A stretch of 64,000 bases of DNA, taken from positions 124,001-188,000 of the forward strand of contig CANMQO010000005.1 in assembly GCA_947500055.1 (NCBI GenBank), in the 5' to 3' direction. The notes beneath the pieces were generated by a model. That model did no database searches and was not told the origin of the DNA. It saw only the letters and a program-made list of their open reading frames with translations. A program made the position numbers and the translations under genes. Positions 17,294 to 26,378 of the stretch are shown here, in pieces (position 1 is the first letter of the stretch; each line of letters starts with the position of its first letter). Origin of the DNA: an uncultured Paracoccaceae bacterium (GTDB lineage: Bacteria; Pseudomonadota; Alphaproteobacteria; Rhodobacterales; Rhodobacteraceae).

Positions 17294-18076
17294 ATGCTCG
17301 TCACGATATCACCTGCCAAATCGCTTGATATGGAGCCCGTAGCCATCGCGGCGACGCAACCGGCTTTCTCGAAAGAGGCCATCAGCCTGGCCCGGACGGC
17401 GCGCAACCTGACCTTGAAAGACCTCAGGGGCTTGATGGGTATTTCCGATGATCTTGCGCGGCTCAATCGGGACCGGTTCAAGGAATTTGCTGACGATCCC
17501 GCGCCGGAGGTAACAAAGCCCGCCGCGCTCGCCTTTAACGGAGACACCTATCAGGGGTTGGAGGCGCGGACATTGACAGAGGATGATCTGGCTTGGGCAC
17601 AGGATCATCTTTGCATTCTGTCTGGTCTCTACGGGCTTTTGCGGCCTTTGGATGCAATTCAGCCTTACCGACTGGAAATGGGCAGCCGGTTAAAAACCCG
17701 CCGGGGCAAATCGCTGTATGACTACTGGGGGGACACGATTGCCAAGGCGCTGAACGCACAGGCGTCCGCGCAAGACACCGGCACGCTTATCAACTGCGCC
17801 AGTCAGGAATATTTCGGCGCCGCAGACCGCAAGGCGCTGAAACTGCGGGTGATCACCCCGACCTTCATGGAGTTGAAGGACGACAAACCGCGCATCGTCA
17901 GTTTCTTCGCCAAGCGGGCCCGTGGGGCCATGGCGCGCCACATCATCGAAAACCGGCTGACGGCGGCCGATGATATCAAAGGGTTCAGCGCAGGCGGCTA
18001 TAGTTATGACGCGGACCTGTCCGAAGGCGACAAATGGGTGTTCCTACGCGATTATCCCGAAACGGCATCCGCCTGA
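17294..18076 (+). CDS. yaaA: Peroxide stress protein YaaA
   Basis: 260 residues of the UPF0246/YaaA family: it begins MLVTISPAKSLDMEPVA and contains LSGLYGLLRPLDAIQPYRLEM and FFAKRARGAMARHIIENR. In E. coli YaaA lowers free iron under peroxide stress and binds DNA. The start follows AGGAAGG. Its last 25 bp overlap the convergent rtcR gene end, so antisense interplay of the two transcripts is possible. Confidence 0.93.
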   Translation: MLVTISPAKSLDMEPVAIAATQPAFSKEAISLARTARNLTLKDLRGLMGISDDLARLNRDRFKEFADDPAPEVTKPAALAFNGDTYQGLEARTLTEDDLAWAQDHLCILSGLYGLLRPLDAIQPYRLEMGSRLKTRRGKSLYDYWGDTIAKALNAQASAQDTGTLINCASQEYFGAADRKALKLRVITPTFMELKDDKPRIVSFFAKRARGAMARHIIENRLTAADDIKGFSAGGYSYDADLSEGDKWVFLRDYPETASA

Positions 18077-19641
18077 CATCGCGCCCAATCAAGACCAAAC
18101 TTGTCGAGATATTTGCGCAGCCGATCTGCATCATTGCGGCTGGCCCTAGCCGCGCGGGAGGCGGCGAATAATGTGCGCCCCGCAGCACTCAGGCTCGCGC
18201 TTTTCTGACAGATTCGGATCACGGCGGCCAATTGCACCCGGTCAAAGATGTCGATGTCGTCCGCCGCCGAACCCAAATGCGTCTGCAATAGCTGCAGATC
18301 CGGGTCGCGCGTCGCATCGCGCCATGTCTTGCGCAGGGTGGCAATCTCTTCCTCCACCATTGCCAATGTGATCCGCCCCCGCGGGGCCAAGGTACACATG
18401 CGTTGCACCGATGCGGATAGATCGCGGAAGTTACCCGGCCAGTCCGTGCCCGGATCGGTTGCAAAACGTTGGTAGCGGGTGAAGGCGTCAGCATTGAAGC
18501 TGAGCCTTTGCCCCAGCAGTTTTTCCACCCGCGTCAGCTCATAGGCAATATTCGGGTCGATATCCTCCGGTCGTTCGCGTAACGCGGGCAGATGGAAGGT
18601 CCACAGGTTCAGGCGCGCGAACAGATCAGCCCGGAACCGGCCGCTCGCCACCAAAGCGGCCAGATCACGACCTGCACCTGCAATCAGGTGGAACCGGCTG
18701 GTGACTTCGTAATCCGACCCAAGCGGCAGGTATTTCCCAGTTTCAACCGCATGCAGGATCATTGCCTGTTCATCGAGACCCAATTCGTCAATCTCATCGA
18801 GAAACAGCACCCCGCCATCCGCCTCTTGCAGCAAGCCCCGCCTGTCCGCACCGGCACCGGGGATCGCCTGCCTGCGATGCCCAAACAGGGTCGACATGGC
18901 GCGTTCACCCTTCAGCGTCGAACAATTGACATGGACCAAGCGGCCCTTGATCCGGCGGCGTTGCAGCTTCAGTTCATACAACCGGGCGGCAAGGTCCGAC
19001 TTCCCCGTTCCGGTCGGCCCCATCAACAACAGCGGCGCATCGGAGTTAGAGGTCACAACCTCCATCCGGTCAATCATTGCGTTGAATGCAGCGTTCTTCG
19101 TGTCAATCCCGCCTTTCAGCAGGGTGTTGTATTCCTTGGCGACCAGATCAAACCGCTGTTGCAGCGCGTTGTAGCGCGACAGATCCAGATCAACGATCTG
19201 CAACGTGCCGGGGCCGGTATCATCGCCGCGCGGTGGGCCAGTCTGAACCAGCTTGGCCGGGATATGCCGGGCCTCTGTCAGCAGGAACCAGCAGATTTGG
19301 GCGACATGCGTGCCGGTGGTCAGATGGACGTGATATTCCTCCCGCTCATCATCAAAACCATAGTCACGGGCGAAATCGAACATCGCGCCGTACATCTCCT
19401 CAAAATCCCACGGATCACGGGTATTGACCTCATGCAGCAGAACCTCGGTTTCGGGGTGCGCGCGTGCAACCTCGCCCTGGATTTTCGTGGCAAGCCCGGT
19501 CCAGCGGCGATCATGCAGCAATTCCAGCCGGGCGATGGGAAAACCGGGGTGATCATTGATCTGCACCGAAGGACGCCAGCGGCGCCTCTTGCCCGCATCA
19601 AGATTCGTGCCGAGAAAGCCGATGACAACATTCGTTTTCAT
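18052..19641 (-). CDS. rtcR: RNA-repair regulator RtcR (CARF + AAA+ domains)
   Basis: 529 residues. The N-terminal CARF domain (about 1-180, with HLTTGTHVAQICWFLL at 106-121) should bind damaged-RNA ligands; in Salmonella RtcR responds to tRNA fragments with cyclic phosphate. The AAA+ domain has Walker A GPTGTGKS (208-215), Walker B VLFLDEIDE (278-286), arginine finger region RFRADLFARLN (335-345) and WPGNFRDL (401-408). A helical DNA-binding C-terminus follows. The sigma54-contact motif GAFTGA is replaced by QAIPGA (258-263). It is divergent from rsr across a 175-bp AT-rich gap; an AGGAT ribosome site precedes the ATG. Confidence 0.92.
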   Translation of the reverse strand: MKTNVVIGFLGTNLDAGKRRRWRPSVQINDHPGFPIARLELLHDRRWTGLATKIQGEVARAHPETEVLLHEVNTRDPWDFEEMYGAMFDFARDYGFDDEREEYHVHLTTGTHVAQICWFLLTEARHIPAKLVQTGPPRGDDTGPGTLQIVDLDLSRYNALQQRFDLVAKEYNTLLKGGIDTKNAAFNAMIDRMEVVTSNSDAPLLLMGPTGTGKSDLAARLYELKLQRRRIKGRLVHVNCSTLKGERAMSTLFGHRRQAIPGAGADRRGLLQEADGGVLFLDEIDELGLDEQAMILHAVETGKYLPLGSDYEVTSRFHLIAGAGRDLAALVASGRFRADLFARLNLWTFHLPALRERPEDIDPNIAYELTRVEKLLGQRLSFNADAFTRYQRFATDPGTDWPGNFRDLSASVQRMCTLAPRGRITLAMVEEEIATLRKTWRDATRDPDLQLLQTHLGSAADDIDIFDRVQLAAVIRICQKSASLSAAGRTLFAASRAARASRNDADRLRKYLDKFGLDWARCQADAVSG

Positions 19642-19816: not shown

Positions 19817-21373
19817 ATGGCAAACAAATCCGTGTTTGCATCGATGAAAGGCCGGTTGCTTCCGGCGGCTTCTGCCAAGAACCTGGCGGGGGCACCGGCC
19901 TACACATATTCCGATGCGCATGCCTTGGCGCAGCTGGCGATGACTGGCACGTTTGGGCAGACATTCTATCAGGACCCGATGCAGGAACTGTCCCGCACCT
20001 TGGAACTGGCCGGTAAAGTTGATCCATCCTTTCTTGCAAAGGCGGCGATCTACACCCGGCAAGAGGGGCATATGAAAGATATGCCCGCCCTTTTGCTGGC
20101 GGTTCTGTCGGCCCGTGACCCGATCCTTTTCCAGCGCGTCTTTGGGCGGGTTGTGGATAACGGCAAGATGCTGCGGACTTTCGTGCAGATCATGCGATCT
20201 GGGCAAACCGGGCGGAAATCGCTTGGCTCCGCGCCAAAGCGGCTGGTGGCCAATTGGTTGAATGAAGCGTCCGACCGGACGATCCTGCAGGCCAATGTGG
20301 GGAACGATCCGTCGCTGGCGGATGTGATCAAGATGGTCCACCCGAAGCCTTCCTCGAAGGCGCGAGACGCGCTGTTTGCGTGGATCATCGGGAAGCCATG
20401 TGACGTCGCATTGCTGCCGGATGATGTGCAGGACTTCCTGCGGTTCAAGAAAACGGGCCGCGGCCGCGTGCCAAACGTTCCGTTCCAGATGCTGACGCAG
20501 CTTGAATTGTCTACGAAACAGTGGGCAAAGATTGCTGAGAACGCATCCTGGCAGATGACCCGTATGAACCTGAACACGTTCCTGCGGCACGGGGTTCTGG
20601 CCCAGCCGAAGATGCGGCGCATGATCGCGGATCGTTTGCGTGATCCGGCGCTGATCGCCAAGGCACGGGTGTTCCCGTATCAGCTGATGACGGCCTACCA
20701 GGCCATGTCTGCGGAGATGCCGGAGGATATCCGGGAGGCGCTGCATGACGCGATGGAGCTTTCGGTGCAAAACGTACCAAAGCTGCGCGGTCAGGTGGTT
20801 GTTGCCCCGGATGTGTCCGGGTCCATGTCCGGCGCTGTGACCGGCTACCGCAAGGGGGCCACAACAGCGACACGGTTCGTGGATGTGGCTGGTCTGGTGT
20901 CTGCGGCTGTGCTGCGGCGCAACCCATCCGCAACGGTGCTGCCGTTCGAGGTGAAGGTGCGTGATGTGCGGCTGGAACCACGCGACACGATCCTGACAAA
21001 CGCGGCGCGTTTGGCGGATCAGTGGGGCGGCGGGACCAACTGCGCGGCACCGCTGGAATGGTTGCTGGCCAAGGGGCGTGCCCCGGATCTGGTGATCATC
21101 GTCTCGGACAACCAGTCCTGGGCGCATAACCAGTACGGCAATGCCGGGACGGTGATGGTGCAAATGTGGGAGAAGCTGAAAAAGCGGAACCCGAAGGCCA
21201 AACTGGTCTGCATCGATATCGCCCCATACGGGACGACCCAGGCGAAAGAGCGTGCCGATGTGCTGAACATCGGCGGGTTCTCGGACAGTGTCTTTGACCA
21301 GATCGCCGCTTTCGCGAGCGGGGAGATGGGCCCGGACCACTGGGTTGGCCAGATCGAGGCCGTGGATGTATAA
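19817..21373 (+). CDS. rsr: Ro60-like RNA-binding protein (TROVE + vWA domains)
   Basis: 518 residues, the size of bacterial Ro (Rsr). The first about 320 residues form the HEAT-like TROVE ring (e.g. LARTLELAG-like repeats, FLAKAAIYTRQEGHMKDMPA), and the C-terminal vWA domain carries the MIDAS motif DVSGS (332-336) with GGGTNCAAPLEW. Ro rings bind Y RNAs on the outside and misfolded RNA ends in the cavity, and work with exoribonucleases. An AGAAGG ribosome site precedes the ATG. Directly downstream is the array of candidate Y RNAs, its expected partners. Confidence 0.92.
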   Translation: MANKSVFASMKGRLLPAASAKNLAGAPAYTYSDAHALAQLAMTGTFGQTFYQDPMQELSRTLELAGKVDPSFLAKAAIYTRQEGHMKDMPALLLAVLSARDPILFQRVFGRVVDNGKMLRTFVQIMRSGQTGRKSLGSAPKRLVANWLNEASDRTILQANVGNDPSLADVIKMVHPKPSSKARDALFAWIIGKPCDVALLPDDVQDFLRFKKTGRGRVPNVPFQMLTQLELSTKQWAKIAENASWQMTRMNLNTFLRHGVLAQPKMRRMIADRLRDPALIAKARVFPYQLMTAYQAMSAEMPEDIREALHDAMELSVQNVPKLRGQVVVAPDVSGSMSGAVTGYRKGATTATRFVDVAGLVSAAVLRRNPSATVLPFEVKVRDVRLEPRDTILTNAARLADQWGGGTNCAAPLEWLLAKGRAPDLVIIVSDNQSWAHNQYGNAGTVMVQMWEKLKKRNPKAKLVCIDIAPYGTTQAKERADVLNIGGFSDSVFDQIAAFASGEMGPDHWVGQIEAVDV

Positions 21374-21510: not shown

Positions 21511-21606
21511 CCCGGCGAATGCCGATGGAACTACATAAGGAACGTGATGGCGGTTTTGTTTGCAGAATACGCGCATGTTGATGTTTCACATACACTTGTC
21601 GCCGGG
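21511..21606 (+). ncRNA. Y RNA-like unit A
   Basis: 96 nt. The ends pair as CCCGGCGA / TCGCCGGG. Inside the stem are the array consensus elements AATGCCGATGGAACTACAT (5' arm) and GTTTCA followed by CTTGTC (3' arm). The loop shows no tRNA-like arms. Closed Ro-binding stem plus position behind rsr suggest a Y RNA. Confidence 0.72.
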
Positions 21607-21622
21607 ACCGACAGACAAACAC

Positions 21623-21761
21623 CTTGGCAAATGCCGATGGAACTACATGCACGGATGATGTCGCGGGTTCGAGCCCCGCCATCGCAGCCGGGATCACCGG
21701 AGCGATGTAGCTCAGTTGGCAGAGCACCTCCCCAACGTTTCATCAAACCCTTGTTGCCAAG
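21623..21761 (+). ncRNA. Y RNA-like unit B with permuted tRNA-like core
   Basis: 139 nt. Outer stem CTTGGCAA / TTGCCAAG; consensus 5' arm AATGCCGATGGAACTACAT and 3' arm CGTTTCA...CCCTTG. Between them comes a T arm (GCGGG-TTCGAGC-CCCGC, 21663-21679), a six-bp acceptor CATCGC / GCGATG closed by a CCGG-GATCA-CCGG linker, then TA and a D arm (GCTC-AGTTGGCA-GAGC, 21710-21725). This is a tRNA elbow in 3'-half/5'-half order, as in YrlA-type bacterial Y RNAs. Confidence 0.82.
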
Positions 21762-21772
21762 ACCCGAAATCA

Positions 21773-21916
21773 CTGGCGAATGCCAAAGGAACTACATCGC
21801 TCCAAAGCGGGATCACCCGAGGGTTCAACTCCCCTCTTGCGACACGCCCAGACGGAAAACCATTTCTGCGGAAATGGGGGCGGGGCCCCGAAACGTTTCT
21901 TTCCCCTTGTCGCCAG
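21773..21916 (+). ncRNA. Y RNA-like unit C, degenerate tRNA-like core
   Basis: 144 nt. Outer stem CTGGCGA / TCGCCAG; 5' arm AATGCCAAAGGAACTACAT and 3' arm CGTTTC...CCCTTG. A T-arm-like hairpin GAGGG-TTCAACTC-CCCTC (21819-21836) is present, but in place of the D arm stands a hairpin CCATTTC-TGCG-GAAATGG. It may be a decayed or specialised member. Confidence 0.68.
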
Positions 21917-21927
21917 ACCTGAAATTT

Positions 21928-22063
21928 CCGGCAAATGCTGGTGGAACTACATTCATGGATTGGTCGCGGGTTCGAGCCCCGCCACCGCAGCCGGCACAAC
22001 CGGAGCGGTGTAGCTCAGTTGGTAGAGCAGTTCCCCTTCGTTTCACCCATCCCTTGTTGCCGG
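21928..22063 (+). ncRNA. Y RNA-like unit D with permuted tRNA-like core
   Basis: 136 nt. Outer stem CCGGCAA / TTGCCGG; arms AATGCTGGTGGAACTACAT and CGTTTCACCCATCCCTTG. T arm GCGGG-TTCGAGC-CCCGC (21966-21982), acceptor CACCGC / GCGGTG closed by a CCGG...CCGG linker, then TA and D arm GCTC-AGTTGGTA-GAGC (22013-22028). It is nearly the same design as unit B, with compensating changes in the acceptor pairs. Confidence 0.82.
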
Positions 22064-22075
22064 ACCCGAAACAGA

Positions 22076-22206
22076 CCTGGCGAATGCCTTGGTGGAACTA
22101 CACTACGAATGTCGAGGTCGTGGGTTCGAATCCCACTCCCGTTACCATGACGGGATAGCTCAGATGGATAGAGCGCGTAACGTTTCGCCAGATACTTGTC
22201 GCCGGG
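22076..22206 (+). ncRNA. Y RNA-like unit E with permuted tRNA-like core
   Basis: 131 nt. Outer stem CCTGGCGA / TCGCCGGG (one G-T pair); arms AATGCCTTGGTGGAACTACA and CGTTTCGCCAGATACTTG. T arm GTGGG-TTCGAAT-CCCAC (22120-22136), acceptor TCCCGT / ACGGGA closed by the seven-base loop TACCATG, then TA and D arm GCTC-AGATGGATA-GAGC (22158-22174). The acceptor and T stem differ from units B and D but keep pairing. Confidence 0.82.
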
Positions 22207-22292
22207 GCATCATGATCACCCCCTTGCGGGACCGAAATGCGCGATGCTAAAACCGCGTCGCCCACCAAGGCCCCGTTTGGGATCAAAACGGC
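22207..22292 (+). other. Spacer between unit E and the first tRNA
   Basis: 86 bp without a recognisable gene. It holds CCCTTGCGGGACCGAAA, which resembles the 3' arm plus spacer of a Y RNA unit but lacks a matching 5' arm, so it may be a remnant. Just before the tRNA, GGCCCCGTTT / AAAACGGCC can form an imperfect hairpin. Confidence 0.4.
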
Positions 22293-22369
22293 CAGGGATT
22301 AGCTCAGTCTGGTAGAGTGCTGCATTCGGATTGCAGAGGCCGGAGGTTCGAATCCTCTATCCCTGACCA
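22293..22369 (+). tRNA. Atypical tRNA, anticodon CGG (Pro)
   Basis: A complete 77-nt cloverleaf including encoded CCA. Acceptor CAGGGAT / ATCCCTG, D stem GCTC / GAGT, anticodon stem CTGCA / TGCAG with loop TTCGGAT (anticodon CGG at 22327-22329), T arm GGAGG-TTCGAAT-CCTCT and A73. The anticodon reads CCG proline codons and C1-G72 fits proline. However, position 37 is A, whereas proline tRNAs normally have G37, and the D arm is of the generic GCTC type. It may be a decoy or sensor tRNA rather than a housekeeping one. Confidence 0.85.
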
Positions 22370-22377
22370 CCCAAACC

Positions 22378-22439
22378 GGAGGAATGCCTGTGGGACTACA
22401 TCTTGAAAATGTCAGCGTCTCACTGAACCTTTGTCCTCC
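22378..22439 (+). ncRNA. Y RNA-like unit F (short form)
   Basis: 62 nt. Outer stem GGAGGA / TCCTCC; arms AATGCCTGTGGGACTACAT and CGTCTCACTGAACCTTTG keep the array consensus. The loop is very short and has no tRNA-like core, so this is a minimal Ro-binding stem. It lies between the two tRNA genes. Confidence 0.68.
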
Positions 22440-22444
22440 ACCAT

Positions 22445-22520
22445 TGGAAGGTAGCTCAGTTGGTAGAGCAACGGTTTTTGGTACCGTGGGTCGCAGGTTC
22501 GAGCCCTGCCTTTCCAACCA
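22445..22520 (+). tRNA. Atypical tRNA, anticodon TTG (Gln)
   Basis: A complete 76-nt cloverleaf with encoded CCA. Acceptor TGGAAGG / CTTTCCA (one G-T pair), D arm GCTC-AGTTGGTA-GAGC, anticodon stem ACGGT / ACCGT with loop TTTTGGT (anticodon TTG), T arm GCAGG-TTCGAGC-CCTGC. U1-A72 and the anticodon arm are glutamine-like, but the discriminator is A rather than the usual G73 of glutamine tRNAs, and the elbow matches the generic tRNA-like cores of the neighbouring Y RNAs. It may be charged poorly or serve as a damage target. Confidence 0.87.
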
Positions 22521-22540
22521 AGTGAATTTGAGCGTGGCGC

Positions 22541-22633
22541 GCGGAGGGAATGTTCCGCCCGGCATCGCCGGGCAGCGCCCGGACCTCCCCCATGGGGAGG
22601 GCGCTTCGCACCCACCCCGAGGTCCGGGCACTG
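22541..22633. repeat. Palindromic interspersed repeat in the RNA array
   Basis: An inverted repeat GCCCGGACCTC (22577-22587) / GAGGTCCGGGC (22619-22629) encloses further hairpins (CCCGGCATCGCCGGG, CCTCCCCCATGGGGAGG). 22555-22605 matches, in inverted orientation, 49198-49248 at 44 of 51 positions by hand alignment. It interrupts the array between tRNA-Gln and unit G and looks like a small non-coding mobile repeat. Confidence 0.75.
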
Positions 22634-22667
22634 CCCTCATCACCTCGCACAAATGAAAGGAAACACA

Positions 22668-22744
22668 TCCGGGGGAATGCCCGTGGGATTACATCGCAGA
22701 AAACGGTCGCCGAAAGGCGTCTCACGCTTCCCTTGTCCCCCGGA
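22668..22744 (+). ncRNA. Y RNA-like unit G
   Basis: 77 nt. A long outer stem TCCGGGGGA / TCCCCCGGA; arms AATGCCCGTGGGATTACAT and CGTCTCACGCTTCCCTTG. The loop holds a CGCC-GAAA-GGCG tetraloop hairpin and no tRNA-like arms. Confidence 0.75.
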
Positions 22745-22745
22745 C

Positions 22746-22890
22746 CCAAGACATGGAAATGAATGTCAGGATTACAGGTAGACGCGAGGCCTTTTAGGGT
22801 CTGGGCCACAAGGCCCGTGCTGGTTCAACCCCAGCCCGGAGCAATCCGGTGGCGGAAAATCATCCTGCAAATGCCTTGTTCCGGTCTTGG
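22746..22890 (+). ncRNA. Y RNA-like unit H, partial tRNA-like core
   Basis: 145 nt, starting one base after unit G. Outer stem CCAAGAC / GTCTTGG plus GGAA / TTCC; 5' arm AATGAATGTCAGGATTACAG, 3' arm ...GCCTTG. It contains a T arm GCTGG-TTCAACC-CCAGC followed by a CCGGA...TCCGG hairpin, as in the capped acceptors of units B and D. The D arm is not clear. It is the last RNA before the protein genes. Confidence 0.65.
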
Positions 22891-22912: not shown

Positions 22913-23353
22913 ATGAATAATGAGGTCATCATACTGAAGTGCAGCGCTTGTGACGCTGATCTGACCAAAACACTGACGCCGATTACAAGTTCGGACGCTA
23001 TGGAGAATTTGTGTACCTTCGCTGAAGGTGAAGCCGTCACGCCGCGCGGGTATGTTCTGCTGCTCGACAAGGATGCGATTGTGAAGCAGGGAAAAATGCA
23101 CCGTGCGACCATTCCGGCAAATATGGCATGGGTTCACCTCGACGATCTGGCGGAAGCTGTTGGTTTGACGCCAATCACAAAACGGTTGGCGGGATGCTGC
23201 GATATCTCCGGCATTGATGGACCCAATCGGATTTGCGCATGCGGCGCCCATGTCGGCACGCAGTTCTCGGACTGCTATGAGTACCACACGTTCCAACCTG
23301 ATCCGAAAACGACAAGATGGATTGGCGTAAGAAGAAGCGAAAACACCAAATGA
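22913..23353 (+). CDS. Small cysteine-rich protein of unknown function in the RNA-repair operon
   Basis: 146 residues. It has CSACD near the N-terminus (10-14) and GCCDISG...RICACG near residues 102-119, so a CxxC pair and CC / CxC clusters that could hold zinc, as in a split zinc ribbon. No family is recognised. It overlaps rtcB by ATGA, so the two are translationally coupled, which suggests a part in RNA repair or recognition. It begins 23 bp after Y RNA unit H with a weak GAGAG ribosome site. Confidence 0.8.
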   Translation: MNNEVIILKCSACDADLTKTLTPITSSDAMENLCTFAEGEAVTPRGYVLLLDKDAIVKQGKMHRATIPANMAWVHLDDLAEAVGLTPITKRLAGCCDISGIDGPNRICACGAHVGTQFSDCYEYHTFQPDPKTTRWIGVRRSENTK

Positions 23354-24762
23354 CAAAAGTAGACATCACAGGCGAGACCCTCAAGGAATGGGGCCACATC
23401 CCCGGCAAGGAATTCGGGCGCGCATTGGAGATTGCGCGGGCGGCTGCTGCGGCAGGTTATGAACTGGACCAGATCAAGGCAAAACTGGACAGGATGAAGC
23501 CGCCGCCACCACCGCCCACACTGCCTTTGCAGAAGGCGGGCGATGTGCCGTTTCATTTCAATATCGAAGCTTCCGATGACCCTGATGAGGTCCAGAACCT
23601 CGCCCAGGTGCGCGAAACGATGACCGCCGTCATCCGCACGCCAACGGTTCAGGCCGCTGCCGTGATGCCGGATGCCTGCCCGGCGGGGCCCGTTGGGACG
23701 ATCCCGGTGGGCGGCGTTGTTGCGGCGAAAAACGCGATCCATCCGGGCATGCACTCGGCCGATATCTGTTGTTCAGTCATGATGACCGATCTGGGCGAGA
23801 TTGACCCCAAGGCGGTGTTGGATGCGGCCGAAAAAGTCACGCATTTTGGCCCCGGCGGTCGCCCAAATGGCAAGCGCTTTACCATGTCGCAAAAGCTGAT
23901 GGATGAGTTCAGAGAGAATGAATTTCTGAATAATCCCAAAGTTTTGCGCATGGCGGTCGAACATCTGGGCACCCAGGGCGATGGCAACCATTTCCTGTTT
24001 GTGGGCAAGTCCCGCAACACCGGGCGCACGGCAATTGTGACCCACCACGGCTCTCGCGGGCCGGGGGCCGTGCTGTATAAACTGGGGATGGAGGTGGCCG
24101 AAAAATACCGCAAGAAACTGTCACCCGATACGCTCAAGCAGAACGCATGGATTCCGGCGGATACGCAAGACGGTCAGGAATACTGGGCGGCCCTGCAACT
24201 GATCCGCAAATGGACCAAGGCGAACCATAACGCGATCCATCAGGCGACTGTGGAAGGGTCAGGCGCGCAGCCGGGTGACCGGTTCTGGAACGAACATAAC
24301 TTCGTGTTCCGGCGCGGCGATCTGTATTACCACGGCAAGGGGGCAACCCCGGCCTGGGGCGATTACGCACAGGATGCAACCGGCCTGACCCTGATCCCGC
24401 TGAACATGTCAGAACCTGTTTTGGTTGTGCGTGGCAAGGATGCGGATCATGCGCTGGGCTTTTCGCCGCACGGGGCGGGGCGCAACTTTTCGCGCTCCGA
24501 ACACAAGCGCAGAATGGGCGAGATGACGGCGCAGCAGGCGCTTGAGGCCGAGACAAAGGGCCTTGATATCCGGTTCCCTGCGGGCGGGATCGATGCATCG
24601 GAATTGCCGTCGTCTTACAAGAACGCGGCCAATGTAGTGCGGCAGATCGACCAGTTCGGGTTGGCCGAGATCGAGGACTATATCGATCCTTACGGTTGCA
24701 TGATGGCAGGGGACGTGCCGCCATTCTGGATGAATAAGAAGAAAAGGAAGGGGCGGCGTTAG
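23350..24762 (+). CDS. rtcB: RtcB family RNA ligase
   Basis: 470 residues. The ATG at 23350 gives an ATGA overlap with the preceding gene. RtcB joins 2',3'-cyclic-phosphate or 3'-phosphate RNA ends to 5'-OH ends with GTP and Mn2+. Expected ligands are visible: D138 and C141 in DICCS, GDGNHF (H214), HHGSRG (232-237), HN at 316-317, and H374 in SPHGAGR, the likely guanylated histidine region. DICCS differs from the common DIGCG, placing it in a divergent clade. A proline run (51-56) separates an N-terminal helix region from the core. Confidence 0.92.
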   Translation: MTKVDITGETLKEWGHIPGKEFGRALEIARAAAAAGYELDQIKAKLDRMKPPPPPPTLPLQKAGDVPFHFNIEASDDPDEVQNLAQVRETMTAVIRTPTVQAAAVMPDACPAGPVGTIPVGGVVAAKNAIHPGMHSADICCSVMMTDLGEIDPKAVLDAAEKVTHFGPGGRPNGKRFTMSQKLMDEFRENEFLNNPKVLRMAVEHLGTQGDGNHFLFVGKSRNTGRTAIVTHHGSRGPGAVLYKLGMEVAEKYRKKLSPDTLKQNAWIPADTQDGQEYWAALQLIRKWTKANHNAIHQATVEGSGAQPGDRFWNEHNFVFRRGDLYYHGKGATPAWGDYAQDATGLTLIPLNMSEPVLVVRGKDADHALGFSPHGAGRNFSRSEHKRRMGEMTAQQALEAETKGLDIRFPAGGIDASELPSSYKNAANVVRQIDQFGLAEIEDYIDPYGCMMAGDVPPFWMNKKKRKGRR

Positions 24763-24777
24763 GTCGCCCCCAAACAT

Positions 24778-25311
24778 ATGAAACAACAAAGCAAATTTCT
24801 CAGCCTTGTGTTGCGCCACACACCTGAGAAAGCGGGATTGACGCTGGATGCGCAAGGCTGGGTCACAGTTGATGATCTGCTCGACGGATGTGCCAAGGCG
24901 GGCCAGAAGATCGACCGGGCAACGCTCGCACAGATCGTTGCAACATCGGACAAGAAGCGGTTCACCCTATCGGATGATGGTACCCGGATCCGGGCCGCGC
25001 AGGGCCATTCTGTTGCCGTGGAATTGGGGCTGAACCCAGCGGAACCACCAGCGACGCTGTTTCACGGAACGGCCGCGAAATCTGTTGCGGCGATTATGGC
25101 AGAGGGGCTGAAACCCGGACGCAGGCAGCAGGTGCATCTGTCACTGGATGTTGATACTGCAACAAAGGTGGGCATGCGGCACGGCAAACCTGTCGTTCTG
25201 ACAGTCGATGCGTTTGGCATGCATCAATCGGGCTACCAGTTCTTTCTGGCCGACAATGGCGTCTGGCTCACTGATCTTGTACCGCCGCAGTTTCTGTCTG
25301 CGCTGAGGTAA
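24778..25311 (+). CDS. kptA: RNA 2'-phosphotransferase KptA/Tpt1
   Basis: 177 residues, the standard size. N-terminal winged-helix part SKFLSLVLRHTPEKAGLTLD and GWVTVDDLL; catalytic ADP-ribosyltransferase part with LFHGTAAKSVAAIMAEGLKP and QVHLSLDVDTATKVG. KptA removes an internal 2'-phosphate from RNA using NAD+, giving ADP-ribose cyclic phosphate. It lies 15 bp after rtcB, so it belongs to the same operon; the cyclase RtcA usually found there is absent. Its last 44 bp overlap the convergent DUF2927 gene. Confidence 0.94.
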   Translation: MKQQSKFLSLVLRHTPEKAGLTLDAQGWVTVDDLLDGCAKAGQKIDRATLAQIVATSDKKRFTLSDDGTRIRAAQGHSVAVELGLNPAEPPATLFHGTAAKSVAAIMAEGLKPGRRQQVHLSLDVDTATKVGMRHGKPVVLTVDAFGMHQSGYQFFLADNGVWLTDLVPPQFLSALR

Positions 25312-26140
25312 GCTGATAAGCGGCGTCCAGCCCCAGGTAAAGCTGCGCGACCTTTTCGGCTGAGTCGCCTGCCGCAATGTCGTGGTCGTATAGCGCCTGC
25401 AAAAGGCGGAAATCTGGGGCGCGGTTCGCGCGGACATCGCCAGAGTTGTCGAAGGTAAATACCGATGACCCGCCAGAGTCATTCAGCAGGCCCAGCGTTT
25501 GCATGAACTCCTCATACAGGCATTCAGCCACCGGTGTGCGCGCATCTTCGTTGTTGATAAAGATGAACCCGGCGCGCAGCTCGTCATTCTTTGACATCAG
25601 ATGAAAATAACATTTTGTCTGCGCACCTTCGGCAAACTGACGGCTGAGTGATTGGGTGCTTTGCGTCAAGGCCCCAAGGGTAATGCCGGTTTCCAGACCG
25701 GTCAGAAAGATAAAGATGCTGCCGGTCAGGACGATATTCTGTGCCTCTTCCTCGCCTTTGAACAAGGCACGGACGATATTGCCCTCCACCCCGTCAAAAT
25801 CGACCCGGGGCATGCGGAAATGAGTGTTGCCAGCAAGCCGGCGGTCATATTGGTCAAGATCGAAAAATTCGATCGCGCCGACGCCGGGGAAATTGGGTAT
25901 CCGCGCATTAACCATCTCGATAATGCCGTTGATCTCGTCCCGCTGGGGGTCGCCCTCGTGGATCACCGTTACTTTGGGGGCGTAGATCCATTTGCGGACG
26001 GTGCCGCGCTCGGATCCCACAATCTCGACCACCTGATCAAAGATCGGTTTTTCCTCTGCCATGGCGGCCTGTGGACCTGAAAACAAGGCTGATAGCGCCA
26101 TTGCACCGATGATGGTTGGAAGGCGGGAAATATATCTCAA
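25268..26140 (-). CDS. Secreted DUF2927 protein
   Basis: 290 residues. I choose the TTG at 26140, which has GGAG eight bases upstream and gives a good signal peptide (MRYISRLPTIIGAMALSALF...AAMA-E). The mature part has the DUF2927 pattern: VRKWIYAPKVTVIHEGDPQR, a CYFHLMSK segment, and VAECLYEEFMQTLGLLNDSG, with glutamates like a zincin-type fold. Its role is not known. It is convergent with kptA and divergent from the acyl-CoA dehydrogenase gene. Confidence 0.75.
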   Translation of the reverse strand: MRYISRLPTIIGAMALSALFSGPQAAMAEEKPIFDQVVEIVGSERGTVRKWIYAPKVTVIHEGDPQRDEINGIIEMVNARIPNFPGVGAIEFFDLDQYDRRLAGNTHFRMPRVDFDGVEGNIVRALFKGEEEAQNIVLTGSIFIFLTGLETGITLGALTQSTQSLSRQFAEGAQTKCYFHLMSKNDELRAGFIFINNEDARTPVAECLYEEFMQTLGLLNDSGGSSVFTFDNSGDVRANRAPDFRLLQALYDHDIAAGDSAEKVAQLYLGLDAAYQLTSAQTETAAVQDQ

Positions 26141-26378
26141 CTCGGTCACTCCAATCAATCATGAACCCCCATTATTGTTGCTAAATGCGAAACAAGTCAG
26201 AAATTTGGCGGTTTTTAGGTTTGAAATGGGTTCAATGGATTCGTTGCAATTGGGTCACGTGTGATGCATCCGATTTGGATTGGTGCGGATGAAACTGAGG
26301 CTCGACTTAACCATATACTGTGCCACAATCACCCAAACCGGCGAAACCCAAGCGATCGAAAACCCGAATGAGGACCCC

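Follow-up and report, generated by a model that had tools for sequence, protein, structure and literature searches.

An array of Y RNA units with permuted tRNA modules, an anticodon arm and interleaved tRNA genes in a bacterial RNA-repair operon: possible decoys for anticodon nucleases

In a marine bacterium, an uncultured member of the Paracoccaceae, a noncoding interval with eight Y RNA units and two tRNA genes lies between rsr and rtcB in the window, i.e., the whole stretch of 64,000 nucleotides that was analysed. Judged by their sequences, the eight units are built on one Ro-binding-type stem but differ in their modules. Those modules that resemble tRNAs are circular permutations of a tRNA in which the acceptor stem is closed, and in unit E, as in a subset of the modules of relatives, a tRNA-type anticodon arm is retained, its triplet being swapped between species. 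The best explanation, which taken as a whole has about an even chance of being right, is that the array is the noncoding part of an operon that deals with damaged tRNAs: such an operon would sense and repair cut tRNAs and provide spare ones, with the Y RNAs serving as anticodon-arm decoys for anticodon nucleases.

RtcR, Rsr, RtcB and KptA are encoded together in one locus according to Pfam. A divergent rtcR and an rtcB ligase gene, which define an RtcR-controlled RNA-repair operon, are both present (rtcR being divergent from rsr), and the Y RNA units adjoin the Ro60 ortholog, as is typical of bacterial Y RNAs. The search for an rtcA cyclase gene covered the stretch from rtcB up to the opposite-strand ORF at 25268-26158, where kptA was the one gene found to fit (ORF list and Pfam). 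The protein-coding genes are the following:

18052-19641, minus strand: rtcR, CARF-type (PF06956) / AAA+ transcription activator (Pfam RtcR 9.4e-70, Sigma54_activat 3.2e-38)
19817-21373, plus strand: rsr, bacterial Ro60 ortholog (Pfam TROVE 4.7e-9, vWA_Ro60 3.7e-16)
22913-23353, plus strand: ORF of 146 aa without Pfam match, overlapping the rtcB start
23350-24762, plus strand: rtcB, RNA ligase (Pfam RtcB 4.2e-35, search run on 23317-24762)
24778-25311, plus strand: kptA/tpt1, RNA 2'-phosphotransferase (Pfam PTS_2-RNA 3.1e-50)

The first-pass annotation had proposed eight tandem Y RNA-like units between rsr and rtcB with two tRNAs among them, and both proposals were borne out, the units lying at 21511-22885 and the tRNAs being tRNA-Pro(CGG) and tRNA-Gln(TTG). 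The interval contains:

21511-21606, plus strand: Y RNA unit A, short module without T-arm (stem-motif scan; Rfam YrlA 33.1 bits)
21623-21761, plus strand: Y RNA unit B, tRNA-like, with T-arm, acceptor and D-arm permuted (stem-motif scan; YrlA 59.2 bits)
21773-21916, plus strand: Y RNA unit C, T-arm-like hairpin and long CGCCC/GGGCG helix (stem-motif scan; weak YrlA match of 19.5 bits)
21927-22064, plus strand: Y RNA unit D, tRNA-like (stem-motif scan; YrlA 68.6 bits)
22076-22206, plus strand: Y RNA unit E, tRNA-like with anticodon arm (stem-motif scan; YrlA 66.9 bits)
22103-22109, plus strand: CUACGAA, the loop of the unit E anticodon arm, with its ACG triplet at 22105-22107 and lying 13 nt upstream of the T-loop motif
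22293-22369, plus strand: operon tRNA-Pro(CGG) with A37; the tRNAs found in this genome include no other Pro(CGG)
22378-22439, plus strand: Y RNA unit F, short (stem-motif scan; YrlA 23.9 bits)
22445-22520, plus strand: operon tRNA-Gln(UUG), sharing 75% identity with the other tRNA-Gln of the genome
22541-22640, plus strand: palindromic repeat (inverted repeat 22570-22636) that has 11 partial matches at other places in the genome and probably does not belong to the system
22668-22744, plus strand: Y RNA unit G, short (stem-motif scan; no Rfam YrlA match)
22754-22885, plus strand: Y RNA unit H, permuted in the D-loop, with a GCAA tetraloop capping the acceptor stem (no Rfam YrlA match)

Seven of the eight units were found by the stem-and-motif scan of the window, whereas 20 dinucleotide shuffles yielded 0.00 on average; unit H was missed by the scan and was assigned by aligning it to 15 further units of its class. 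The terminal-stem elements AAUGC and CUUGU of YrlA (RF02553) are present in the window units, and A, B, D, E and F match the Rfam model at E-values of 3e-14 to 0.25, all below its gathering threshold of 69 bits (best 68.6). Same-genus arrays hold YrlA units of up to 84.1 bits, with four of 56 genomes exceeding the cut-off. Permuted tRNA-like D, T and acceptor arms are present in B, D and E, partial in C and absent in A, F and G, and the differently permuted unit H is, by reading, a putative class II (Leu-like) tRNA opened in the D-loop. Scores of the modules against tRNA halves were too low for an isotype in most units and were used only for D, with arms closest to tRNA-Asp, and for E, which matched Arg(ACG) best. 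A 36.6-bit Rfam tRNA match spanning units D and E lies in Y modules and was dropped as a tRNA.

That the outer stems vary in sequence yet keep pairing, as had been claimed from the window, was upheld in 284 units from 77 of 81 loci, which were chosen without using the outer stem. Six outer-stem positions are paired in 0.99, 0.99, 0.98, 0.98, 0.97 and 0.89 of these units, and after swapping partners between units the values were 0.91, 0.52, 0.68, 0.90, 0.45 and 0.46. Compensatory changes occur at 14 of 37 pairs in the alignment of the unit C class (25 rows) and at 14 of 28 in that of the unit H class (16 rows), so that covariation in homologous loci, whose absence had been named beforehand as grounds for giving up the idea, is present in the outer stem and in both alignments. 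The common arm consensus that the first-pass annotation had described (GGAAC/GTTTC) applies to A-E; F and G carry GGGAC- or GGGAT/GTCTC-type arms and H carries AGGAT/ATCCT. Its view of an unusually large set likewise stands in part: eight units are the maximum among 80 named loci of relatives, reached in four, but multi-unit arrays of two to eight are common, and we rejected the notion that eight is extraordinary. At least one Y unit is held by 77 of the 80 loci and two to eight by 28 of 29 genome loci, and as several Y units per locus are the norm among relatives, this array belongs to a known kind, in which it is one of the large ones.

The permuted modules and the Arg(ACG) anticodon arm of unit E had been overlooked in the first pass. 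A YUNNNRN hairpin lies exactly 13 nt before the T-loop motif in 43 of 148 testable units, or 37 after removal of six class C look-alikes, and the other spacings from 3 to 25 nt gave zero to two units each. At spacings of 11-15 nt, 47 units were observed (look-alikes included) against a mean of 2.17 and a maximum of 7 with shuffled prefixes. The look-alike, a CTTCCGG loop at spacing 12-13 in seven class C units (six of them at 13), was excluded as an anticodon loop. The result was replicated in 17 loci outside the family, with 12 of 29 units at 13 nt and none at all other spacings, or 12 of 27 without L223, which, judging by its length, is the contig already represented by L204 in the first set, and which gave no hit. 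The known RYPER model (available part of PMC8394870) would allow for an ordinary array, i.e., several Ro-PNPase adapters whose diverse modules are unrelated to anticodons; the 13-nt spacing and its replication outside the family make this hardly credible.

Overall, only 54 of the 219 units with a T-loop qualify as anticodon-bearing, among them a single one of the window's eight. In the 44 comparable units, base 37 always agrees with the housekeeping tRNA that has the same anticodon, the pattern admitting only purines there, and bases 37 and 38 together match in 39 (shuffled mean 14.5, maximum 24); with distinct loops only, they match in 14 of 18, which was reached by none of 2000 shuffles. D-loop-permuted modules were rejected by reading as anticodon carriers, the inspected loops lacking U33.

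Unit E itself has a loop identical to that of the genome's tRNA-Arg(ACG), on an anticodon stem of about 3 bp, and free folding of the unit draws no isolated anticodon hairpin. Across 11 orthologues this slot shows five anticodons (Arg, Gln, Met, His and Lys) with at least four changes, on a scaffold that stays nearly constant while the anticodon switches, and U33 and purine 37 are kept in all 11. These observations bear on the possibility that modules repeatedly arise from tandem-tRNA junctions or captured tRNAs and that the anticodon arm is a functionless relic. In genus genomes, weak Rfam YrlA matches of 24-34 bits that lie apart from rsr speak for such an origin: three of four such regions (L033-L036) span tandem tRNA-Asp genes, whose junction has the permuted arm order, and one lies at tRNA-Phe. 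These matches were not counted as loci, tblastn found no Rsr at L033-L036, and the YrlA model also gives matches in control genomes. A vestigial origin would also accommodate the many tRNA-like modules that lack the arm or have the same layout with loops that are not good anticodon loops, either of 6 nt (e.g., L141, L147, L151 and L185) or with C33 (L165, L176 and L192). However, a relic would drift, whereas bases 37-38 track the isotype when all slots are taken together. In the E slot, U33 and purine 37 have survived four or more exchanges of the triplet, and the nearly invariant flanks of this slot argue against fresh capture of whole tRNAs. We therefore consider a relic unlikely.

The tRNA genes, too, are a recurrent and isotype-restricted part of such loci, which the first pass had overlooked. 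They occur in the interval in 43 of 80 relatives and are absent from 37, and by reading none was found in the interval of the 17 loci outside the family. All but one of the 67 interval tRNAs are Asn, Gln, Lys or Pro, and the operon copies form lineages separate from the housekeeping ones. The count was reduced from 70 by dropping ARAGORN calls of Pro agg (L182), Arg acg (L184) and SeC (L191), all three of which fall within H-class Y modules. The Ala call of L222 and Rfam tRNA matches of 30-33 bits in L207, L210, L212 and L214 were treated in like manner. All 67 have the orientation of the operon and occur in alternation with Y units, as would be expected if tRNA genes and tRNA-like modules did no more than mark the sites at which RNase P and RNase Z separate Y RNAs and mRNAs from the long transcript. 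Such punctuation would, however, neither restrict isotypes to Asn, Gln, Lys and Pro nor switch anticodons, and with no interval tRNA in 37 of the 80 loci and the 17 outside ones we hold it to be quite improbable. The operon tRNAs for Asn, Gln and Lys have mostly ordinary anticodon loops, so evasion of nucleases by loop change would be seen at most in the operon Pro tRNAs.

Asn, Asp, His, Arg or Lys account for 43 of the 54 anticodon-bearing units, against 10 of 41 genes for N/D/H/Y/R/K in the housekeeping comparison, the isotype counts not being phylogenetically independent. Tyr(GUA) does not occur among the 54; Gln and Pro, although represented among the operon tRNAs, are rare (three) and absent, respectively; and a comparison by eye of Y anticodons with the operon tRNAs of the same locus gave no pattern. 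Colicin E5 targets the tRNAs for Tyr, His, Asn and Asp, and colicin D those for Arg. PrrC cuts Lys tRNA, as the accessible text of PMC10264068 states.

In the decoy reading, anticodon nucleases would cut tRNAs and the resulting halves would activate RtcR, the CARF domain of which binds 5' tRNA halves or fragments with a 2',3'-cyclic phosphate (accessible part of PMC7790460). RtcB would repair the cut tRNAs, KptA may clean up junctions, and the operon tRNAs would replace lost isoacceptors. The Y RNAs would tether Rsr, and probably PNPase, and their anticodon arms may compete with, or be cut instead of, the attacked tRNAs, with anticodon switching as a putative arms race with nucleases of changing specificity. 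As their acceptor stem is closed, the permuted modules should not be chargeable. The 13-nt spacing, the isotype pattern of bases 37-38, the E-slot switches and the restricted set of operon tRNAs speak for this reading; the small share of T-loop units that qualify, the modules with 6-nt or C33 loops, the short anticodon stem, the isotypes missing or rare among the Y anticodons and the lack of a convincing sigma54 site upstream of rsr speak against it. More tentatively, and falling somewhat short of an even chance, Ro RNPs may carry a rapidly re-targeted panel of such unchargeable decoys, with a triplet matched to local toxins or defence nucleases; the panel would be encoded alongside repair enzymes and spare tRNAs that serve against the same attack.

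The consulted portion of PMC7790460 points both ways: the tRNA-like domain of YrlA is suggested there as a competitive inhibitor of the nuclease, and Salmonella YrlA is reported not to be cut by the SOS-induced anticodon nuclease, which counts against the decoy mechanism. The latter also weighs against the arms being bait that is meant to be cut, so that a cyclic-phosphate 5' fragment activates RtcR and the array widens the range of nucleases able to switch the operon on. The ligand of the CARF domain would fit this role, as would the variety of isotypes among the anticodon arms that such operons encode. Since the Y RNAs exist only once the operon is on, however, it could be feedback at most, and the 5' fragment would bear a Ro-stem strand, not a tRNA D-arm; a sensor is thus doubtful.

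Several known systems come close to this locus. Salmonella rsr-yrlBA-rtcBA (YrlA/YrlB; RF02553, structure 6CU1) likewise combines an Rsr neighbour, a Ro-type stem and the RtcR/RtcB context, and its YrlA has circularly permuted D-, T- and acceptor arms, but it has two Y units instead of eight and rtcA where kptA adjoins rtcB here, and the interleaved tRNA genes are a feature of the present locus. The available parts of the YrlA descriptions (PMC8394870, PMC11472068), from which the permutation is taken, do not include an anticodon arm with a species-specific triplet as found here and in relatives. The Deinococcus Rsr-Y RNA-PNPase particle (RYPER) shares the likely basic function, a Y RNA tethering Rsr to an effector, and its description, in the part of PMC8394870 available, lacks an array of permuted tRNAs of several isotypes. 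In Anabaena, as would be the case here, normally silent extra tRNAs and rtcB are induced under translational stress by one regulator, but this is the repressor TrcR instead of RtcR, the 26 tRNA genes of the trn operon lie on a plasmid apart from rtcB, and neither Rsr nor Y RNAs are mentioned in the accessible sections of PMC10272220. Phage tRNAs with altered anticodon loops also answer anticodon nucleases with extra tRNAs, but they are functional and not permuted Ro-bound RNAs (PMC10264068, available part), and the operon Asn, Gln and Lys loops here are mostly unaltered. Neither anticodon arms in Y RNAs nor recurrent operon tRNAs in a Y RNA interval were found in print in the open-licence papers searched.

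Our findings bear on the roles of bacterial Y RNAs beyond Ro60 tethering and on why Y RNAs resemble tRNAs: a switching triplet on a fixed scaffold suggests mimicry read by something that reads anticodons, which is a testable answer. If true, Ro RNPs would be linked to toxin-nuclease conflicts, which would explain their placement in RNA-repair operons, and the interleaved Asn, Gln, Lys and Pro tRNA genes suggest that such operons replace tRNAs as well as repair them.

Regarding the promoter, simple consensus scoring gave no convincing sigma54 site upstream of rsr in the window; among those of the 80 loci with at least 100 bases upstream, the best sigma54-like site contains GG-N10-GC in 21. GAFTGA is the usual motif at the position where the window RtcR has QAIPGAG, and among the 29 of 79 loci in which this motif is readable, 24 lack GAFTGA and five have it.

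The first-pass annotation had placed eight Y RNA units (A to H) between rsr and rtcB, and this count holds, with seven units returned by a layout scan of the window (none in shuffled sequence) and unit H, outside these seven, placed by alignment. Common to all eight is an outer stem interrupted by AAUG in its 5' strand and by UUGU in its 3' strand, inside which an inner stem runs up to UAC and is followed by a variable module. The outer-stem covariation noticed at this locus was found in homologous loci as well: with units chosen by motifs and inner stem alone, the outer stem pairs at 0.89-0.99 per position (284 units), compared to 0.45-0.91 with partners swapped between units, while at least 7 of 8 inner-stem pairs form in 265 of 282 units chosen by the outer stem (swapped: about 126). 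Alignments of the units matching H (class H, 16 rows) and C (class C, 25 rows) show compensatory change at 14 of 28 and 14 of 37 pairs, respectively.

The set had also been called unusually large, which stands insofar as eight tops the range, but multi-Y arrays as such are general. This follows from the counts at 29 genome loci (G000, the genome of the window, five same-genus genomes with YrlA hits and 23 other Rsr-bearing genomes drawn from 394 family genomes searched), 28 of which hold 2-8 units; at 80 loci of named genomes, which include many of the 29 again; and at 17 loci outside the family (phylum and class draws), with 0-6 units by scan. The 80 loci represent the best 80 of 391 Rsr relatives, the nearest being uncultured Rhodobacteraceae, Litoreibacter, Octadecabacter and Loktanella, and zero to eight units occur at 3, 7, 16, 16, 17, 10, 6, 1 and 4 of them, respectively.

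In units B, D and E, the module opens with the T-arm and ends with the D-arm; between them the 3' acceptor strand comes first and is linked by a closing loop to the 5' acceptor strand. This circular permutation has been described for YrlA (PMC11472068). Since the acceptor end is closed in such modules, these RNAs should not be chargeable, which also argues against a role of Y modules in translation. By our reading of the alignment, unit H and its relatives would be class II, Leu-like tRNAs with the Ro stem placed in the D-loop; this class starts with GGUAGACGC, continues with a long variable arm and a T-arm, ends in UGGCGGA, and has a 5-bp acceptor stem, capped by GCAA in the window. D-loop-permuted class I modules occur in some relatives. 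Tandem tRNA genes have a junction order identical to the B/D/E module, and weak Rfam YrlA hits (29-34 bits) lie over tandem tRNA-Asp junctions at L033, L034 and L035, making such a junction a plausible origin of Y modules and an annotation trap for YrlA searches.

Among 281 distinct units from G000 and the 80 loci, 181 contain a T-loop motif, before which we searched for anticodon arms (YUNNNRN loop, closing stem of at least 3 bp). At 13 nt between loop and T-loop motif, a distance that 33 of 49 tRNA readings in G000 also show (with some genes read repeatedly), 43 of 148 testable units qualified, while the other spacings between 3 and 25 each gave 0-2; six of the 43, carrying the class C element CTTCCGG, were removed as look-alikes, leaving 37. 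Exact matches to G000 anticodon loops at spacings 11-15 numbered 25 (shuffled mean 1.45, maximum 5), including four CTCCAAA strings with stems of 0-1 bp. At the 17 outside-family loci, one of which (L223, without hits) is by its length on the same contig as L204, 12 of 29 qualified at 13 nt and none at any other spacing in the 3-25 range. In several modules of this layout the loop is 6 nt long or has C33.

The two sets pooled hold 219 T-loop units from 98 loci, the L223/L204 contig counted twice. With spacing 14 allowed, the Leu(CAG) loop admitted on a 2-bp stem and CTTCCGG left out, 54 units in 47 loci qualified: GTC 10, GTT 8, GTG 5, ACG 4, TTT 4, TTG 3, CTT 3, CAG 3, CAT 2, TCT 2, ATG 2, ATT 2, and CAA, CCT, GCA, TCG, AGT and ATC once each. 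Compared with the housekeeping loops of one genome, G000, all 44 comparable units agree with the matching tRNA at base 37 (where the pattern allows only purines), and 39 of the 44 agree at bases 37 and 38 together (mean 14.5 and maximum 24 after shuffling). Asn, Asp, His, Arg and Lys make up 43 of 54 Y anticodons, including five A34 forms counted with Asn, Asp and His, while N/D/H/Y/R/K make up 10 of 41 housekeeping genes; unit and isotype counts are raw, regardless of kinship between loci.

The unit E slot is represented by eleven close orthologues, all framed as UACA[loop]UGUCGAGGUCGUGGGUUCGA apart from one change in one row.

Anticodons in the unit E slot, by locus
ACG: G000, L126, L127, L175
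TTG: L128, L133
CAT: L129
GTG: L130-L132
CTT: L134

The first and second anticodon bases vary most among the 47 positions aligned; the third comes eighth, preceded by bases 32 and 37 and by positions in the T-arm and the acceptor. U33 and A38 are invariant, and base 37 is a purine in every row. A minimum of four changes is required for these five anticodons, and four are counted on the Rsr tree, in which the TTG loci do not group as one clade and support at several forks is poor. In a second slot, with the frame UACAGA[loop]UCUCC, the anticodon is GTC, GTT, TCG or GCA. Compared with the open-licence papers searched, what is new is that the mimicry reaches the anticodon loop with isotype detail and that the anticodon itself is exchanged.

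The simplest cause would be an anticodon reader. Synthetases and modification enzymes could fill this role but leave the anticodon exchange unexplained; anticodon nucleases explain it. The Y RNA anticodon arms would then act as decoys for such nucleases, a proposal to which we give an even chance. The Asn/Asp/His/Arg/Lys bias is similar to the tRNA target lists of the anticodon nucleases colicin E5 and colicin D. Lys is likewise the target of PrrC (PMC10264068). According to PMC7790460, anticodon-loop cleavage gives 5' halves with a cyclic phosphate, whose binding by RtcR turns the operon on, and the tRNA-like domain of YrlA is a proposed competitive inhibitor, YrlA itself being uncut in Salmonella. 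That the arms serve as bait for the sensor seems unlikely to us, and that they are a relic equally so.

In 43 of the 80 loci, the stretch from rsr to rtcB (or, if no rtcB was found, the 2500 bases next to rsr) holds tRNA genes, 67 in total and all oriented with the operon: 24 are Asn, 17 Gln, 13 Pro and 12 Lys, and one is without called isotype; three further calls were struck as misread Y modules. These loci are mostly Rhodobacterales (L147, L158, L160 and L189 are titled otherwise), and the 17 outside-family loci gave no accepted tRNA gene. Mean identity within the operon set and to housekeeping copies was 0.88/0.78 for Asn (5 distinct housekeeping sequences, one a partial hit), 0.86/0.74 for Gln (2), 0.88/0.76 for Lys (6) and 0.83/0.68 for Pro (2; operon set including the misread L182), indicating that operon tRNAs form lineages of their own. 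Each of the 13 operon-Asn genomes searched also holds a further Asn-like match of lower similarity, distinct from the operon copy; operon Pro has A37, both G000 housekeeping Pro G37; and the L195 operon tRNA joins a body of the operon Gln family to the Asn anticodon GTT. The operon genes might supply spare tRNAs under stress, as precedented in Anabaena (PMC10272220).

In G000 (3.97 Mb, 22 contigs, Rhodobacterales-type), the order rtcR (divergent), rsr, array, 146-aa ORF, rtcB, kptA shares the layout of the Salmonella RNA-repair operon rsr-yrlBA-rtcBA as given in PMC7790460, except that kptA occupies the place of rtcA.

18052-19641, RtcR, with QAIPGAG at the GAFTGA place
22541-22640, palindrome inside the array, 18-nt arms, 94% complementary
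22913-23353, 146-aa ORF with Cys pairs, between array and rtcB
24778-25311, kptA, 2'-phosphotransferase, directly after rtcB

The 146-aa ORF had no Pfam match; homologues (41-98% identity) occur at 5 of 28 family loci compared. GAFTGA, the usual motif of sigma54 activators, is absent from 24 of 29 readable RtcR relatives (of 79), no clear -24/-12 site was seen upstream of rsr, and the window RtcR may act with another sigma factor. Eleven partial matches (80-100% identity) elsewhere in G000 suggest that the palindrome is a dispersed intergenic repeat.
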